From positions 1 to 41,416 of the forward strand of contig JAUYKA010000004.1 of the NCBI GenBank assembly GCA_030698495.1: a stretch of DNA of 41,416 nucleotides, given 5' to 3'. Positions 27,336-38,789 of this stretch are shown here, in pieces. Positions within the stretch are counted from its first letter, which is position 1. The number at the start of each line of letters is the position of its first letter. The notes beneath the pieces are model-generated. The model was given only the letters and a program-made list of their open reading frames with translations. It did not search any database and was not told where the DNA came from. The DNA comes from a bacterium. Its GTDB lineage: Bacteria > Patescibacteriota > Andersenbacteria > UBA10190. The position numbers and the translations under genes were made by a program.

Positions 27336-28739
27336 TCACGTCACCGCAATCGGATAGTCGCCGTCAACACAGGCTGTGCACCAGCCGTATCGATTATACC
27401 TCTCCAGCACTGCCAGCATGACCGGCAGGGGAAGATAGGTCACGGAATTGGCACCGATCATGTGAGCAATTTGCTTCTCGTCTCGGCCATGTGCCGCCAA
27501 CTCTCTCAATGTCGGCGTATCAATTCCGTAATAACAGCAGAACCTTATAGGCGGAGCGGGAATAAACCAATGCACTTCCATGGCGCCTGCCTCGTACAGC
27601 ATCTGGGTCAAAATCCGCGCCGTGTTCGACCTCACTATCGTATCATCAACTACACCAACGCGTTTGCCATGCACCATCCGCATCGTAACGCTATGCTTGT
27701 CTCTGATGACATCCTGTCTGTCTTCTTGCCCCGGCAAGATAAACGACCGGCCGGGAGCAAAACGATTACGGACAATTGCCCGCCAATCTTCAGTCGATAG
27801 ACCGCGTTTCTTAGCAAAGCCGAACATGGCATCAAGGCCGGAATCGGGCACGCCAACTACCATGTCGACATCTACTTGGCAAACGTCCGCCAAGGCTCCG
27901 CCCAGTGCGTATCGGACATTAGACATTGTTGCCGTTGAACCTATGCCTTCATCCGGACGGCTAAGATACACGGCATTCAGCCAGCAAGCGTGTGTTCTCT
28001 CTAACCGACGAACCGTCTGCGCCTTAGTTCCATACTCGTCACCGGCCTTGTCGGAAACAACCACCGTCCCTGCCGGTATGTATTCAGCCCGGTAGTATAC
28101 CCTGCCTAATGCTGGTTCTTCCGAAGCAAAAACTACGCCGCCATTGCCATCAAAGCCGTACCACAAAGGCCAAAAACCATGAGCATCCCTCGCTGCCACC
28201 AGATGCTGGTCGCTGATAGCGATAATAGAAAACGCGCCATCCACTCTCTCCACCAGATCATACACTGCTCCCGCCAGTGTGGTTGCCTCGCTGTGAGCTA
28301 TAACCGCCGCCAATGTTTCCGTGTCGGACTGCGTTTGAAACCATTGCCCTTGAGCTTCCAATTCTTTTCGCAGCACCTCGTGACGGGGAATTTGCCCGTT
28401 ATGCACCACATAAAACTGACCGAACTTCGGATGACACATGCCAATCGGCTGTCCGTGAGCAAGATCACTGGGGCCAACAGTTGAATATCTCGTATGTCCG
28501 ATATATGCGGTTGGCGCGATCTCCCTGGCCCTGTCGCAGAATTCGCAAAACTTTGGATTACTCGCCGTACAGGCTGTTCGCACCAAACCCTGTCCGACAA
28601 AGTGATTGAACTGGCCGTCACAGGAGACTTGAGCCAACCCCACTGCTTCGTGACCCCGATGGTTTACTTTCACTGCTTGCTTAACCATAAAATCAACCGG
28701 AATCGTATTTTGGGAAAACGCTCCGCAAATACCGCACAT
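27336..28739 (-). CDS. purF: amidophosphoribosyltransferase
   Basis: First committed step of purine synthesis: glutamine plus PRPP to phosphoribosylamine. 467 aa. The N-terminal nucleophile Cys follows the start Met (MCGICGAF), which fixes the start at 28739; an upstream in-frame ATG at 28817 would bury it. The Ntn glutaminase domain shows NHRGHEAVGLAQ, GHTRYSTVG and the VVHNGQI block. The PRPP loop is VGVVDDTIVRSNT near residue 345. A ribosome site (GGAG) lies upstream. No other pur gene is in the window, which is unusual, since Patescibacteria usually lack the whole pathway. Confidence 0.93.
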   Translation of the reverse strand: MCGICGAFSQNTIPVDFMVKQAVKVNHRGHEAVGLAQVSCDGQFNHFVGQGLVRTACTASNPKFCEFCDRAREIAPTAYIGHTRYSTVGPSDLAHGQPIGMCHPKFGQFYVVHNGQIPRHEVLRKELEAQGQWFQTQSDTETLAAVIAHSEATTLAGAVYDLVERVDGAFSIIAISDQHLVAARDAHGFWPLWYGFDGNGGVVFASEEPALGRVYYRAEYIPAGTVVVSDKAGDEYGTKAQTVRRLERTHACWLNAVYLSRPDEGIGSTATMSNVRYALGGALADVCQVDVDMVVGVPDSGLDAMFGFAKKRGLSTEDWRAIVRNRFAPGRSFILPGQEDRQDVIRDKHSVTMRMVHGKRVGVVDDTIVRSNTARILTQMLYEAGAMEVHWFIPAPPIRFCCYYGIDTPTLRELAAHGRDEKQIAHMIGANSVTYLPLPVMLAVLERYNRYGWCTACVDGDYPIAVT

Positions 28740-30807: not shown

Positions 30808-31096
30808 TTAGTCCAAAAGGTAAGAGACAGTTGGAACCCAGTCAAGGAGGAAGTACGGGGGTTGGCGGGGATTTATAATAGAAGTGTTATGAAAACGGCT
30901 AATTTTTCTATTTTGATAAAACAATACAACACCCGATGTTTGAATATATGAATATACGCCTCACATTAAGGGAGCTCTTCAGTCCACTCCTCTGATGAAG
31001 AGATACTTCAGAGTTCTCGAATTCAATGATGTCGTCTTTTATATTGGTCACTTGCGTGACCCATTCTCGAGTCCAAAAGGTTAGAGCAAGTTGGAA
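30808..31096. repeat. left copy of the long direct repeat flanking the accessory core
   Basis: Three blocks recur at the right flank. (1) GTCCAAAAGGT-AGAG-TTGGAAC (30811) with a sister at 31071 and a relative at 38057. (2) About 55 bases around AACGGCTAATTTTTCTATTT (30865-30920), matching 38115-38168. (3) About 110 bases from ACAATACAACACCCGATG to GTTCTCGAATTC (about 30923-31025), matching 38570-38670 with few changes, ending in CATTCTCGAGTCC. At the right flank, blocks 2 and 3 are separated by the HTH gene. Confidence 0.85.
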
Positions 31097-32161: not shown

Positions 32162-32820
32162 GACGTCTTTCCTCCGAAAACAGAAACAGAAGCTGGAGTG
32201 TATTCAGTTGAAAGGGAACCGCTCCCTACAACTCTGGATACCGACCAAGACAGTCTGTGTCCAGAGAATAGGGGGAGCGAACGTGGTAACCCTATACCAG
32301 TATTCGCTCCCAAGAGATGTGAGGATTGTGGAAGTGCTTTGGCGCACACTTCCATAGTGCTCATGTTGGCGGCTGCCAAAAATCCGTTAGTCTCACTGAC
32401 ACCTCACGAGCCAGTGTTATTGTCCGGACTGGTATATTTTAGTCGCACCATCCTTGCCGCAAGGAATGGTGAGGGTCTTCCACTCCACATTATGCAGAGC
32501 TTCGTCTTGGAGCGTGCGAGCATTGGCACTGACTTCCAAGCACAAGCGTGTGAGAACATACAAAACTCACATGCCAGGTATGATGCCGGTTCTTTGTATC
32601 CTGTCCGACTAAAGGATTCTTTCGGGCACACTACCACGAGCGGCTTTCGCGAGTCATACCTTCGCGAAGCATCAGTAATAATGTGTGCAGTTTTTGTATT
32701 AGAGGTTCTGCACCCTTGTAACCCCCTAGCAGCTCTTACGCGGCTACCCTACGTCCCGTACCGCTGGGATGCGCCTCTAGCTTTGCACTGCTTGCCCAGT
32801 ACCAGAGGTTGTCCTGGGTT
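32162..32820 (-). ncRNA. structured spacer unit R1 with pseudoknot
   Basis: On the minus strand the unit begins with an H-type pseudoknot: stem 1 GGGGGUU with AACCUCU, stem 2 GUGCAG with CUGCAC (around 32685-32725), joined by an A-rich loop. A hairpin AUCCU/AGGAU (about 32600-32620) follows. A long hairpin then has GGGAGCGAA/TTCGCTCCC with GGT...ACC inside (about 32270-32312), and CTCTGGA/TCCAGAG follows. The same order of elements occurs in R2 with different but still paired bases. It precedes the 32161 gene. Confidence 0.6.
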
Positions 32821-32871: not shown

Positions 32872-33180
32872 GCTACGTTCCTTTCATGTCTCGGGTGGTT
32901 GTGGACCTTGGTGGGATACATTTCCCACTTCTCTGGACACAGTTTTCTCGTCAATTCTGTGCCCAAGGAAGTGAGGGGAGCGACAGAGCGGTAACCCGAC
33001 CGTCATGTGCTCCCCAAGTAACCCTTGGCCCCTTAGTGAGGCCGATCGCGTGCCCTTACCATCAGAAGTCTCCTGTGTGCGATGGTGTTGGGAATGATAC
33101 TGATCTGCCAGACCGGGCAGTAATCAGGTATAGTGCTGGTTCTTTGTGTCCTTTCCAGCTAAAGGACTTTTTTGGGCATA
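32872..33180 (-). ncRNA. structured spacer, distal part of unit R2
   Basis: On the minus strand this stretch holds the hairpins GTCCTTT/AAAGGAC (near 33145-33170), CTGCC/GGCAG (about 33105-33120), CCATC/GATGG (about 33058-33085) and CCAAG/CTTGG near 33020. GGGGAGC/GCTCCCC with GGT...ACC inside lies at about 32975-33015. The last is the counterpart of the GGGAGCG hairpin of R1. No frame with coding character is present. Confidence 0.5.
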
Positions 33181-33300
33181 TCAGTAAGAGGGACATACTC
33201 GGGCTATACCTCCGAGAAGTATCATCACTGATATGTGCGATTTTTTGTTTAGAGGTTTCGCACCCATTGTAACCTCTTTGCTCCCTTTGACCTCGTTGAG
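33115..33300 (-). ncRNA. pseudoknot element R2
   Basis: Minus strand: AGAGGUU pairs with AACCUCU, and GUGCGA with UCGCAC, interleaved as an H-type pseudoknot with an A-rich third loop (33225-33280). Then CATATCAGT pairs with ACTGATATG, enclosing a CTCGG/CCGAG hairpin. R1 at 32570-32740 has the same pseudoknot with GUGCAG/CUGCAC and G.U replacements, so pairing rather than sequence is kept. Confidence 0.65.
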
Positions 33301-33465: not shown

Positions 33466-33936
33466 CTACCACGGGCACTCGACCGTTTCGGTACCGGGGA
33501 CGATAGGCTCGCTGCCCCACACGAGGGCGCGGCCGCTCCAGAACTCGATGCTGCGAGGCGTCGCGTTCCGGTCCCACGGTTCCGGTTCGGGCTTGTGCCC
33601 AATGAAGGCCGTGATCAAAACGTAATAGTCATCTTCCTCGGCCTTCTTGAGGATGACGACGATCTTGCTGCACTGCTCGGGAGCGCGGTCCTTAACGAAC
33701 CGGCTCAATCCGAACCGTCCGGGCCGTTGCGCAAACAAAATCTGGTCACCATGCCCGGTGGTGACGCAGATCGTCTCACCGATGGACTGACCGAAGTCAA
33801 TCTCCTCGATGATGAATTGCCTTCCGGAGCTGTGAATATGACGCAGCGCCTCCGGAAGCAGGCGAACAACGTTTCCGTGAATGTGCGAGCGGTGGCGATC
33901 AACCACTCCCTCGCCTGATCCGAGTTGCCATTGCAT
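33466..33936 (-). CDS. hypothetical protein, 156 aa, accessory operon
   Basis: Not recognised. AAAGGAG six bases upstream selects the ATG at 33936. The sequence has clear strand-helix character and a distinctive C-terminal block (KIVVILKKAEEDDYYVLITAFIG, then HKPEPEPWDRNAT and SIEFWSGRALVWG). The block of paired hydrophobic strands followed by EPWD and a Trp-rich end looks like a compact enzyme or toxin-like fold, but this is only an impression. It lies directly downstream of hammerhead H2, whose cleavage would give it an 81-nt leader. Confidence 0.65.
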   Translation of the reverse strand: MQWQLGSGEGVVDRHRSHIHGNVVRLLPEALRHIHSSGRQFIIEEIDFGQSIGETICVTTGHGDQILFAQRPGRFGLSRFVKDRAPEQCSKIVVILKKAEEDDYYVLITAFIGHKPEPEPWDRNATPRSIEFWSGRALVWGSEPIVPGTETVECPW

Positions 33937-33970: not shown

Positions 33971-34025
33971 CTCTGTTTCGTCTTTTTAAGACTCATCAGG
34001 CCGAGTACACACTCGACGACAGAGG
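33971..34025 (-). ncRNA. type III hammerhead ribozyme H2
   Basis: Minus-strand order: stem III 5' half CUCUGU (34019-34024); cleavage triplet GUC (34018-34020, its first two bases shared with stem III); stem I hairpin GUCGAG-UGUGUA-CUCGGC (34000-34017, one U.G); CUGAUGA (33993-33999); stem II GUCUU-AAA-AAGAC (33980-33992); GAAA (33976-33979); stem III 3' half CAGAG (33971-33975). Every invariant core base is present. Cleavage falls between 34018 and 34017, 81 nt before the ATG at 33936. Confidence 0.92.
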
Positions 34026-34132
34026 AAGGTTTTTATTATCAAGAACCTTCCGAAAAACTTGGTTAACCCTTTGTGGTTGGATGATCCACTCCTTCCAACC
34101 GGACCAGAACCCTCGGTGGAGAGGGTTTATGA
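34026..34132 (-). ncRNA. three-hairpin 3' module before hammerhead H2
   Basis: Downstream of the VWA stop codon. Hairpin 1 is ACCCTC-TCCACC-GAGGGT. Hairpin 2 is GGTTGG with CCAACC around a loop containing AAGGAGTGGAT. GGTTAACC follows, then hairpin 3, GGAAGGT/ACCTTCC with TTGATAATAA in its loop. The loops UCCAC of hairpin 1 and GUGGA of hairpin 2 can pair (kissing). The same module occurs at 35621-35720 with compensatory stem changes. Confidence 0.75.
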
Positions 34133-35533
34133 TTAGAAGCTGTCGATCCCGACACCCCCCGTCGACTTGGCGAAATCCACCAGTGACGGATTGCGCACTT
34201 CCATGGCAAAACCATGAACGCGCGTGCCGTTGACCTCCTGCTTCTTGAGACCCTGGATCGAAGTGTCTTCGTCTGTGAGGACGACGACCTCCGGGCGGTA
34301 CAGGGCAGCACCTTCCCGGATCATTTCCTCGATCTTCGTGTGAGCGGCGCGAACGGTGGCTGCAATGTCTGTGCCACCGCCAGAGAAGTTTCCTTTCGCG
34401 AACTTTTTCATGAGTTCGCGTGCCTCCTCTGGGGTTCCGGCATGCTCGACTCGCCCGAGTTGGGTGTCGAACACGCTGAGGAACACTTCTGCGTCTCCAG
34501 CAAGCACAGCCTTGAGGCGGTTCATCACCACCCCGGTGGCCTTCCAGTGCTTCTTGCCCCTCATCGAGCCGGAGCCATCGACGAGGATGAAAATGGCCTG
34601 CTTCTTCTCGAGGCGCGTCACACGTTCGCGCACCGGAAGCTGACCACTCACTGCCTGATAGAGAAAGTAGGACGGACTCTTCTGCCGCGTAGCCCAAGCA
34701 GTCTTTGCCACGCGCGAGAGTTCTCCAAGGTGTTTCATCGGCCGCTGCCGGACCTCTTCGCCAGCGGGATCGGGTTCGACCAAACGCTGCCGGCGAACCT
34801 GCAGTTTGGTGAACTGATCCAGCTTGCGCGAGATGTCCAACATGACTCGCTTGTCAGCACCGGGGACCAGATCCTCAGCGACCTTGAGTCGATCAAGACT
34901 CTTGGTGCCGCTTTTCTGGCCGTCTCCCTCGGGCGATTCCATGACGCTGTGGTTCTTGCCCTCGGGGTCGAGCATGTCCTGCTCTTCCTCGGACAGAGAA
35001 TCCACCTCATCCATGACTTCGTTCAATGCCTCGGCCACCCCTTCCGGTCTCTCGTTATCCGAGAAGATCGGCAGAGGCTCGCCCGCTTCGCCGCCACCTT
35101 GCCCACCTTGTTGCTTAGAAAGCAACTTGAGCAAGCTCATGGCCTGCTCGAGGGGGGTGTTGCCAGGAAACTGTGCGAGGTCCACCGTGTCGAGGAAATC
35201 CACGACATTCTGGTGGTACTTCATCGCTGCTTCCAGGCGGTCGTTGATGGCGACCTGTCGGTCTTTGGTGTATTTCCGCCCGCTGATGGGTTTGGAAACA
35301 CTCCATTCTCCTTCCGAGTCGGGAGCCGACAGGCTCTCCTCGACCCGATGCCGAACCAGGTCACGGTACTCGGACGGTGGGCTGATTCGGCCACCCGCCG
35401 CCAAGTTGCAGAGATCGGCCACAAGGTCTCTTGAGTACGACCCCAGGCCAACCTTCTGCGCCACCTCACGCATCTCATCTCCTGAGGGAGCGATATACGT
35501 AGGCGGAGGTGAAGTCCGAAAAGTGAATTGCAT
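34133..35533 (-). CDS. von Willebrand factor A protein (CobT/ViaA-like)
   Basis: 466 residues. The N-terminal 300 or so are mostly helical, with an acidic Gln/Gly/Glu-rich middle. The C-terminal 170 form a VWA domain. Its metal site is complete: DGSGSM near residue 317, a Thr in GGGTDIAAT, and LTDED for the last Asp. Such proteins work with MoxR-family AAA+ ATPases, which are encoded just upstream here; the pair resembles RavA-ViaA, CbbQ-CbbO or the CobS/CobT-like pairs of phages. The client is unknown. GGAGG upstream selects the ATG at 35533 over an in-frame TTG. The gene lies between two hammerheads. Confidence 0.88.
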   Translation of the reverse strand: MQFTFRTSPPPTYIAPSGDEMREVAQKVGLGSYSRDLVADLCNLAAGGRISPPSEYRDLVRHRVEESLSAPDSEGEWSVSKPISGRKYTKDRQVAINDRLEAAMKYHQNVVDFLDTVDLAQFPGNTPLEQAMSLLKLLSKQQGGQGGGEAGEPLPIFSDNERPEGVAEALNEVMDEVDSLSEEEQDMLDPEGKNHSVMESPEGDGQKSGTKSLDRLKVAEDLVPGADKRVMLDISRKLDQFTKLQVRRQRLVEPDPAGEEVRQRPMKHLGELSRVAKTAWATRQKSPSYFLYQAVSGQLPVRERVTRLEKKQAIFILVDGSGSMRGKKHWKATGVVMNRLKAVLAGDAEVFLSVFDTQLGRVEHAGTPEEARELMKKFAKGNFSGGGTDIAATVRAAHTKIEEMIREGAALYRPEVVVLTDEDTSIQGLKKQEVNGTRVHGFAMEVRNPSLVDFAKSTGGVGIDSF

Positions 35534-35565
35534 GTTCGTAACCTCCAAACGCGGTGTTTCGGACC

Positions 35566-35620
35566 CTCTCTGTTTCGACCTTTCGGTCTCGTCAGTCAGG
35601 ATACATACCCTGAGACAGAG
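35566..35620 (-). ncRNA. type III hammerhead ribozyme H1
   Basis: Minus-strand order: stem III 5' half CUCUGU (35615-35620); GUC (35614-35616, overlapping stem III); stem I UCAGG...CCUGA (35596-35613); CUGACGA (35589-35595); stem II GACC-GAAA-GGUC (35577-35588); GAAA (35573-35576); stem III 3' half CAGAG (35568-35572). All core positions agree with the hammerhead consensus (CUGANGA, GAAA, GUC). Cleavage between 35614 and 35613 lies 80 nt before the VWA ATG at 35533. Confidence 0.92.
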
Positions 35621-35722
35621 GGAGGTTTTATTATCGAGACCTCCTAACTCGGTTAACCCTTGTGACTAGTTATCCACTCCTTACTAGTCTGACCAGTGAC
35701 TCTCGGTGGAGAGAGTTTTTCG
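35621..35722 (-). ncRNA. three-hairpin 3' module before hammerhead H1
   Basis: Starts a few bases after the MoxR stop. Hairpin 1 is ACTCTC-TCCACC-GAGAGT. Hairpin 2 is GACTAGT/ACTAGTC with AAGGAGTGGATA in the loop. GGTTAACC follows, then hairpin 3, GGAGGT/ACCTCC with TCGATAATAA in its loop. The loop sequences equal those of the 34026 module while the stems differ and remain paired. It would become the 3' end of the moxR message after cleavage. Confidence 0.75.
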
Positions 35723-36802
35723 TTAGGCGCGGGTGTTATCCAGCGCCATCCGCTGCGCCTCAGCGGCTTTTTCCGAAGCGGAATCGCGGACACGCTTGCG
35801 GCGATCCGTGAGTCCGTCGGTGACCTTCAACTTGGCCACCTCGTCCTGGAAGGCCAAGAGGCGCTTGGCCACCTGCAACAACTTGATGGGAGAGTCCTTG
35901 GCCGAGGACTGTTCGCTGAGCAGTGTCTGGAGCTTGCGCTCCGCATCGCTCAGTCGCGCCTCAGCTTCGGCTCGCTCGTAGGCGGCATCGAGTTCCGCCT
36001 TCAAGTTGGCCGCGAACTGCTCCATGCCGGGCAGATAGCAGAGATCGAGGAGATCCTGCTTTTCCACCTTGCCGGAGCCACGCAGCTCAGCCGCCGCCTT
36101 CACCACGCCGAGAGCGTGGACCGCAGTCCGAGGCGACACGACGTCGCCGTTCTCGCTGGCCTTGGCCATGACTTCCGCCAGGACGCGAGTGGTGCCATTC
36201 AGATCGGCACCGCGGAGTTGCGGGGCGACTTTCCCAAAGAGTTCGAGGTAGTCCTGAGCCGTATAGGACGGCCAGGACACTTTGTACTGCAGCGGGAAGC
36301 GCTCGATGAGAGCGGCAGCGGCAGGCCCCAGATCAGCGATTTCCGAGGGATCCTTGTTCGTGACCGCGATGATGACTTTCGTCTTCATCGGGTACGATTG
36401 GGACCCCTTGCGCAGTTTCTTCGCGGTGAGGGTGTCCTTCAGCGCCAGCAACACCGTTGCCGGAGCATCGAACATCTCCTCGAACACCGCGAAGTCCTTC
36501 GCGAGAAAGCTCTGATCCGGGAAGTATTTGAGAACCTTGTCACGCTCAAGGGCAGCGAAGTCGAGACCGCCCCAAAGGGTGGCCTCATCCATGCCTTCAC
36601 CGAAGGACTGGACGTACACGTCGTCATCTTTGGCGACCACGGACAGTGCCGCGGTGACCATTTCTGACTTGCCGTGTCCGCCCGGGCCCCAGAGGAGCAC
36701 ATTCTTTCCTGACGCGACGGCCAGGGAAAGGATCCGTGCCAGCTCCTGGTGACGGATGAACTTCGAGCCCAGAGCTTCCGAAATACGCACAAACAGGTTC
36801 AT
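35723..36802 (-). CDS. MoxR-family AAA+ ATPase
   Basis: 359 residues. Walker A is GPGGHGKS (39-46). The Walker B position reads FAVFEEMF (104-111), with Glu in place of the usual Asp, a departure worth noting. Sensor 1 is AVTN (146-149) and the arginine finger lies in ALIERF (R168). A helical lid and a long C-terminal coiled part follow (about residues 240-359, with charged heptad-like runs). MoxR ATPases remodel clients together with VWA partners, encoded next here. AGGAGG six bases upstream selects the ATG at 36802 rather than 36865. First gene of the hammerhead operon. Confidence 0.88.
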   Translation of the reverse strand: MNLFVRISEALGSKFIRHQELARILSLAVASGKNVLLWGPGGHGKSEMVTAALSVVAKDDDVYVQSFGEGMDEATLWGGLDFAALERDKVLKYFPDQSFLAKDFAVFEEMFDAPATVLLALKDTLTAKKLRKGSQSYPMKTKVIIAVTNKDPSEIADLGPAAAALIERFPLQYKVSWPSYTAQDYLELFGKVAPQLRGADLNGTTRVLAEVMAKASENGDVVSPRTAVHALGVVKAAAELRGSGKVEKQDLLDLCYLPGMEQFAANLKAELDAAYERAEAEARLSDAERKLQTLLSEQSSAKDSPIKLLQVAKRLLAFQDEVAKLKVTDGLTDRRKRVRDSASEKAAEAQRMALDNTRA

Positions 36803-37741
36803 CGCAAACCTCCTGACCCGATTGTTGGGTCTTGGATTGGGCTTGCCCTTGGAGGGGGCAAGCAATTTCTTGTTTGTCCCTCACCACAGGGCATCCCGTG
36901 GTTTGGATCTCTGTAACCATACAGAGAGGGCTACTCACAATTAGTGTGGCTGGTCGGCCACTTGCGAGCAGCGCCTCTCGTTATGAGAAGTAGGGTTAGA
37001 TCACACCAGTCCAAGAACTGGTGGGGAGGGAAAGTGTGTTATCCGTGCCGCCCGGAGGCGGCTTTGGTATTCTTGCTTTCCTCCATCCCGCTTTACATGA
37101 AGTAAAGTGGGAATCTTGGATGCGTGTTGTTTACCTTGGACCAGGTTCTCTCCTGACATTGCGATCCTGTGTCAACTTAATGACTCGTCCAAAGCTGCAA
37201 CCAGCGCCTGTAAAGAACAATCTTTAGTGAAAGAACAAATACGATCCTAAAGAACTAAACTCTCCTGATTTATGGGACTTATATCCCACTTATGTGCTGA
37301 ACACTGTCGGCATTGATTTTGAGAATTGAGCCGGTGTTACAACACATGAGTGGGAAGTGAATAAGTGTTTACCTCATTCACATCCCTCATCAAGGCCTGT
37401 GCATGGGAACTACTGGTATATTTTCCCAGGTCGCTGCTCGTCATGCCCCTTGTTTATTCGGTTGTTAAGGTGCGATCCGTTTCTCTCCTGCCACAGTGGT
37501 GGGTGCGAGAGAGGCACACTCACTACTGTGGCTCGGTAACAAAAGAAGCGGTTACGCGACTTGTCCGAATCCTGGATACGAATATCAGGAAGAGAGGTAG
37601 ACAAATCACCTAACCGCTTCTTACTAGACTTGGTCCCTTTCGGGGTGGCTGGCGCTAGTAAATGTAGTTGCCAGTTCTCTCCTGATTCGATCCTTTTGTT
37701 GTAAAGTGCAGGTGCCTTTCGGCTGTTGGTGTTTTGATGTT
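36803..37741 (-). ncRNA. long structured leader of the accessory operon
   Basis: About 940 nt between promoter P2 and the MoxR start, without a convincing gene. On the minus strand it reads as a chain of hairpins: GCC-GAAA-GGC (near 37715), CCC-GAAA-GGG (near 37637), GAAGCGGTTA/TAACCGCTTC (37611-37620 with 37545-37554), CCACAGT/ACTGTGG (about 37490-37531), GCCGCC-TCCG-GGCGGC (about 37047-37062), CACCAGT/ACTGGTG (about 37008-37027), CTCTGTA/TACAGAG and GCTTGCCC/GGGCAAGC (36841-36863). CAGGAGAG occurs four times (37149, 37262, 37484, 37678), each close to a GGATCG word. TTACTAG (37654) with CTAGTAA (37621) would make a pseudoknot with CTGGC/GCCAG. Confidence 0.6.
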
Positions 37742-38548: not shown

Positions 38549-38565
38549 GCGCTCAAACAATACAA

Positions 38566-38720
38566 ACAATACAACACCCGATGTTTGAATATATGAATAT
38601 ACACCTCACATTAAGGGAGCTCTTCAGTCCACTCCTCTGATGAGGAGATACTTCAGAGTTCTCGAATTCAAGGAGGCGTTATTAAATAAGGTCACCTTCG
38701 GTAACCCATTCTCGAGTCCA
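38566..38720. repeat. right copy of the flanking direct repeat, block 3
   Basis: About 100 bases from ACAATACAACACCCGATG match 30923-31025 nearly base for base. A small hairpin with a changed arm (GGTCACC-TTC-GGTAACC against GGTCAC-TTGC-GTGACC) and CATTCTCGAGTCC follow. The last bases run into the 3' end of the tRNA-Tyr gene. Confidence 0.85.
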
Positions 38721-38789
38721 GGGGGTTGGAGTTGAACCAACCTAAACGGGTTTTACAGACCCGCGCATCAGCCGCTCTGCCACCCCTGG
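38717..38789 (-). tRNA. tRNA-Tyr (GTA), archaeal-like, short variable loop
   Basis: 73 nt. Acceptor CCAGGGG/CCCCTGG with discriminator A, so the first pair is C1:G72. Anticodon stem CGGGT/ACCCG with loop CTGTAAA, anticodon GTA. Variable loop of five bases (TTTAG), T arm GTTGG-TTCAACT-CCAAC. Bacterial tRNA-Tyr normally has G1:C72 and a long variable arm; this one has the archaeal/eukaryotic features. No CCA is encoded. A matching archaeal-type TyrRS lies 1.1 kb away. Confidence 0.92.

Follow-up and report, generated by a model that had tools for sequence, protein, structure and literature searches.

Two diverged copies of a composite RNA cassette, each about 160 nt long with a type III hammerhead ribozyme as its 3′ half, separate the three genes of a MoxR–VWA–ORF3 operon in a tiny uncultivated bacterium of the Patescibacteria. 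With a probability of roughly 60%, we propose that these duplicated cassettes provide MoxR and VWA with processed and protected mRNA 3′ ends by way of self-cleavage. Hundreds of bacterial hammerheads were found in 2011, and their role in bacteria has been open since; Patescibacteria, with their tiny genomes, have hardly been accessible to genetics. Stable 3′ ends, if cleavage makes them, would explain the persistence of ribozymes in the gene spacers of bacteria. The operon lies in a stretch of 41,416 nucleotides (the window), which belongs to a genome of 1.16 Mb in 37 contigs with a completeness score of 100%.

Two hammerheads and a conserved upstream module

The genes are arranged on the minus strand in the order MoxR, VWA and ORF3. 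The first (35723–36802) encodes a MoxR-type AAA+ ATPase (Pfam bpMoxR, E = 6.9e-13; this match was computed on the longer ORF 35723–36865, and the start at 36802 was picked by its GGAGG site). The second (34133–35533, minus strand) encodes a CoxE-like VWA-domain protein (Pfam VWA_CoxE, E = 2.9e-8), and the third (33466–33936, minus strand) a protein of 156 amino acids with uncharacterised large-phage proteins as its kin (phrog_23674, E = 2e-21; 39% identity to a protein of Erwinia phage Kaldavass). The closest named relatives of the VWA gene come from Parcubacteria, Uhrbacteria and Doudnabacteria; searches of phage records, and pattern searches of viral contigs, found no relative. Sequence searches did not find MoxR or VWA as neighbours of a phage homologue of ORF3, and the operon genes gave no match to defence systems.

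The MoxR/VWA spacer (189 nt) contains HHR1 (35568–35620, minus strand) and the VWA/ORF3 spacer (196 nt) contains HHR2 (33971–34024, minus strand), both of which were identified by the Rfam model RF00008, by a structural finder and by minimum free energy (MFE) folding. Read from 35620 to 35568, HHR1 is composed of CUCUGUC, UCAGGGUAUGUAUCCUGA, CUGACGA, GACCGAAAGGUC, GAA and ACAGAG; read from 34024 to 33971, HHR2 is composed of CUCUGUC, GUCGAGUGUGUACUCGGC, CUGAUGA, GUCUUAAAAAGAC, GAA and ACAGAG. Both share core nucleotides (CUGANGA, GAAA), cleavage triplet (NUH, here GUC) and stem topology with RF00008 type III hammerheads. Stems I (7 bp in each copy) and II (4 bp in HHR1, 5 bp in HHR2) are closed, and stem III (6 bp in each) is open. 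The initial annotation of the window had reported two complete type III hammerheads in these spacers, with every core base in place and with stems that vary between the copies yet remain paired; this observation is confirmed in each of these respects.

RF00008 (Hammerhead_3) matches HHR1 with 44.3 bits (E = 5.9e-8) and HHR2 with 42.7 bits (E = 1.7e-7) in a searched region of 1.8 kb. Both remain just under the Rfam gathering score of 48.5, which is a search threshold rather than a structural feature, probably because their loop lengths depart from the RF00008 seed. A default Rfam scan therefore misses them. Scores of this kind are usual in Patescibacteria, where only two of the 36 RF00008 matches listed, both from one genome, reach the cut-off. 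The hammerhead is the exact MFE fold of isolated HHR1 (−18.2 kcal/mol) and HHR2 (−16.5 kcal/mol). When the adjacent hairpin is included in the folding, the hammerhead is still the MFE structure in copy 1 and lies at most 2 kcal/mol off in copy 2. The structural finder returned no match in 1.88 Mb of resampled (shuffled) sequence, and no third RF00008 match was present in the genome of the window.

Cleavage is predicted between 35614 and 35613 in HHR1 and between 34018 and 34017 in HHR2. The resulting 5′ ends, 35613 and 34017, would precede the ATGs at 35533 and 33936 by 80 and 81 nt, the distances originally given, and the ribozymes are, as originally described, in sense orientation between co-oriented genes. 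VWA alone is bounded by two hammerheads of the same strand and type, 1.6 kb apart.

The first reading of the spacers was correct about the ribozymes, but it missed that each is preceded by a conserved module about 100 nt long. The two spacers align end to end, and copy 1 (35621–35719, minus strand) and copy 2 (34025–34129, minus strand) of the module have the same architecture of three hairpins, P1, P2 and P3. P1 carries the loop UCCACC and P2 a loop with the complementary GUGGA, which makes a loop–loop (kissing) interaction possible. The P2 loop also contains AAGGAG, resembling a ribosome-binding sequence. A conserved linker, GGGUUAACC, joins P2 to P3, and in both copies P3 stands directly against the ribozyme, its last base touching the first base of stem III. 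Built from copy 1 alone, a covariance model finds copy 2 with 63.8 bits (E = 2.9e-14). All 24 pairs of P1, P2, P3 and the loop–loop interaction are kept between the copies; nine have changed on both sides and none is broken, although the five loop–loop pairs are invariant, so that covariation says nothing on them. When the partners are slid by 1–3 bases as a control, pairing falls to 34–47%. The nine compensated pairs and the complete conservation of pairing indicate that the composite cassette was duplicated and then diverged under structural constraint. With folds kept by compensating changes in two natural versions, it is also a compact test piece. Pattern searches, and the covariance model in 342 genomes and 45 loci, recovered only these two copies of the module; other matches, among them one with E = 0.006 in the 342 genomes, are at chance level.

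The likeliest use of these elements, as judged from sequence, appears to be self-cleavage of the message into single-gene pieces. Each cassette, from P1 and P2 with their complementary loops through the abutting P3 to the type III hammerhead, would belong to a 3′ untranslated region, the first to that of MoxR and the second to that of VWA. On a MoxR–VWA–ORF3 co-transcript, which we infer together with cleavage and 3′-end protection, both hammerheads would self-cleave while transcription is under way. This would leave the upstream gene with an mRNA whose folded 3′ end is capped by a hairpin and bears a 2′,3′-cyclic phosphate, and the next gene with an mRNA that begins with a 5′-OH group and an 80-nt leader of ribozyme remnant. 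The main benefit would probably be a 3′ end that is processed and protected separately for each gene, so that the stability of neighbouring messages is uncoupled. Intrinsic terminators and REP-type 3′ hairpins protect mRNA ends, and like these the cassette would leave a hairpin directly at the 3′ end of the mRNA. Unlike these, the end would be made by a ribozyme, would need no release of the polymerase and would carry a cyclic phosphate.

Placement of hammerheads across Patescibacteria

Hammerheads are common in Patescibacteria. In a scan of 380 genomes of the phylum under strict filters, 24 gave RF00008 matches with E ≤ 1e-4; in the class of one patescibacterial genome (G175) the count was 9 of 55. 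In the class of another genome (G318) the core pattern CTGANGAGTC..GACGAAA occurs in 71 of 393 genomes, as compared to 3 for the reversed control pattern. We assembled a census of 147 strict hammerheads at 123 loci, including the window. Part of this set was chosen by a core pattern in which stem II is GUC/GAC, and its genes were called by a simple coding-potential script rather than a trained gene finder.

Relative to the ribozyme, the upstream and downstream genes are both on the same strand in 77 cases, same and opposite (convergent spacers) in 41, opposite and same (divergent) in 11, and both opposite (antisense) in 10. The background of local gaps longer than 120 nt comprises 266 tandem, 69 convergent and 102 divergent spacers. 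The excess of same/same over opposite/opposite (p = 6e-14) and of convergent over divergent spacers (p ≈ 1e-6 against local gaps) comes with p-values that are too small because the sequences are partly related and the loci not phylogenetically independent. In a rerun, a same-strand gene lies upstream of 119 of the 140 placed hammerheads, and the picture is unchanged at three gene-calling settings. The census thus provides a testable rule for hammerheads in Patescibacteria: they lie on the sense strand, after a gene.

This placement bears on the role of the ribozymes. Tandem spacers alone fit a 3′-end role and a separator role equally well. With 119 of 140 hammerheads following a same-strand gene and convergent spacers far outnumbering divergent ones, formation of mRNA 3′ ends fits better than a leader function. 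The initial annotation had proposed that the message is cut into single-gene mRNAs; the sense orientation between co-oriented genes agrees with this proposal, and the census favours a role on the 3′ side of genes over one as a leader. The leader alternative is that the hammerheads mainly serve the downstream gene, a 5′-OH, ribozyme-capped leader protecting or tuning the translation of VWA and ORF3. Both ribozymes do end 35 nt ahead of a start codon that is served by a good ribosome-binding site, and tandem cases placed in the census also lie close to the next start (median about 90 nt). A leader element is expected to favour divergent over convergent spacers, and the reverse is found, with 41 hammerheads in convergent spacers that have no downstream sense gene. 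We consider this explanation unlikely.

The clearest one-gene-one-ribozyme array in the census occurs at locus L230 (2348–4291, G641:C13), where four consecutive small genes of uncharacterised function are each followed by their own hammerhead at intervals of about 600 nt. These hammerheads lie 52–69 nt past the stop codon. The last one faces an opposite gene, as a 3′-end role predicts, and no sense gene follows that could use a leader.

A hairpin of at least 8 bp stands directly before 27 of the 147 hammerheads, compared to 2–13 in shifted windows. We rejected the idea that an abutting hairpin is universal to hammerheads: it is enriched, yet confined to a minority. A looser, MFE-based hairpin criterion gave no discrimination, and the genes upstream of census hammerheads show no dominant shared family. 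A wider reading is tentative and on balance doubtful: hammerheads would be a general means by which Patescibacteria form mRNA 3′ ends, each gene having one, whether capped by a fold or not, and they would replace or precede termination; the window cassette would be a dedicated duplicated version. If true, it would amount to mRNA 3′-end processing by ribozymes on the scale of a phylum.

Homologous operons, origin and precedents

Five homologous operons were found in other Patescibacteria, with VWA proteins 68–78% identical to that of the window; one of them (L015) is on a contig labelled Thermoplasmata, which is probably misbinned. In none of the five does a hammerhead separate MoxR from VWA, and the ribozymes are not conserved in homologous operons. 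In three relatives (L015, L017 and L019) this spacer measures only about 15–25 nt, and in L016 and L018 it is longer, with a sequence unlike that of the window. A single hammerhead in L017 (2084–2136), located in the region upstream of MoxR, shares 79% identity with HHR2 along 53 nt. Given the lack of ribozymes in the homologous operons, the cassette was most simply gained in the lineage of the window, inside a gene module that elsewhere is compact. Its absence from all five also implies that the function of the operon does not need it.

All three operon spacers of L016 (5790–5945, 7520–7625 and 8214–8320) hold copies of another structured RNA, in which the strands CUCGA, CUUCGA and CGGAGC/CGAAGC surround two variable hairpins in a three-way-junction-like arrangement. 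This RNA has no Rfam match, and a script search of the locus set finds the L016 copies only. Since it differs from the window cassette, the repeated RNAs placed between these operon genes vary from host to host. L016 (8610–8640) and L018 (4183–4212), two distant genomes, furthermore share a stretch of 31 nt with 97% identity in long non-coding regions; it forms a GGUGGAA/UUCCACC hairpin with a ribosome-binding site and AUGAUG in the loop.

The dispensability of the hammerheads in relatives would also suit the view that a mobile or phage-derived island carries them along as passengers, with activity at the RNA level and no benefit to the operon. The surroundings look acquired: two direct repeats of 168 nt with 86% identity (30919–31086 and 38564–38731), one of which overlaps the 3′ end of tRNA-Tyr, bracket a region of 7.6 kb with higher G+C content that contains the operon, an arrangement like that of an integrated element. 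Parts of the repeat are also present at other places in the genome. Among the island ORFs checked, no integrase or structural gene was identified, and one phage-like gene, ORF3 with its large-phage relatives, is present. The stem II sequence and core pattern of these hammerheads also matches 46 viral contigs (reversed control, 0), and 47 of the 49 hammerheads placed in viral contigs lie between co-oriented genes. Against mere passage, the nine compensated pairs and the intact cores of both diverged copies indicate selection after duplication, and the placement after genes is far from random. We therefore judge the passenger explanation to be rather improbable.

It is highly improbable that HHR1 and HHR2 release a linear RNA whose ligation yields a circle of VWA RNA, in the manner of eukaryotic retrozymes and Penelope-like elements: one gene is indeed flanked by two like ribozymes and the cleavage products would bear the ends needed for ligation, but no RtcB ligase (PF01139) was found in a genome scored as complete, no reverse transcriptase was seen nearby or matched among the island ORFs given to Pfam and NCBIfam, and Perreault et al. 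sought circular or spliced products of bacterial arrays and detected none (PMC3088659).

Formation of 3′ ends by self-cleavage, the reading we prefer, has a close precedent. Ribozyme punctuation between operon genes had been annotated as unusual. It is not unprecedented: in 2011, Perreault et al. described prophage hammerhead clusters that flank single genes and proposed that they yield single-gene mRNAs; in Agrobacterium, three hammerheads surround ardA and their cleavage was demonstrated (PMC3088659). The idea is thus not new and the present case is of that kind, with several same-strand hammerheads bounding single genes. It differs from those clusters in its setting, a MoxR/VWA/ORF3 operon of Patescibacteria, in the fusion of each ribozyme to a conserved upstream hairpin module, and in the statistics of placement, which favour a position 3′ of genes. 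In the open-licence literature we found no paper joining hammerheads with Patescibacteria, Parcubacteria or CPR, and as far as this literature was searched, the census of Patescibacteria, the after-gene rule, together with the statistics behind it, and the cassette of hairpin module and ribozyme are new.

Other elements near the operon

A glutamine-amidotransferase-domain protein is encoded near the island (27336–28739, minus strand) and matches the phage family phrog_26846 (E = 2.7e-72). Downstream of ORF3, two tandem copies of a small ORF with a ribosome-binding site (33429–33406 and 32871–32848, minus strand) start with MVYVRGPP and MVRIRGPP, and counterparts occur in similar places in relatives (L016 8346, MVSARGPP*; L019 7362, MIRGPP; L017 7498, MKNRDPP). 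Of the RAPP-type motifs, RGPP gave the most robust arrest, and many bacterial phyla avoid it more than any other tetrapeptide (PMC12992588), which suggests that the RGPP mini-ORFs may be arrest-peptide leaders. Each of them is followed by a copy of a second duplicated RNA of 141 nt (33125–33265 and 32575–32715, minus strand; 72% identical), which by its pairing potential looks like two pseudoknots. In the first, a GAGGUU/AACCUC hairpin has the loop GGUGCG, which would pair with a downstream CGCAC (GUGCAG/CUGCAC in the other copy); in the second, a GUCC/GGAC hairpin has the loop GCUGG, which would pair with CCAGC.
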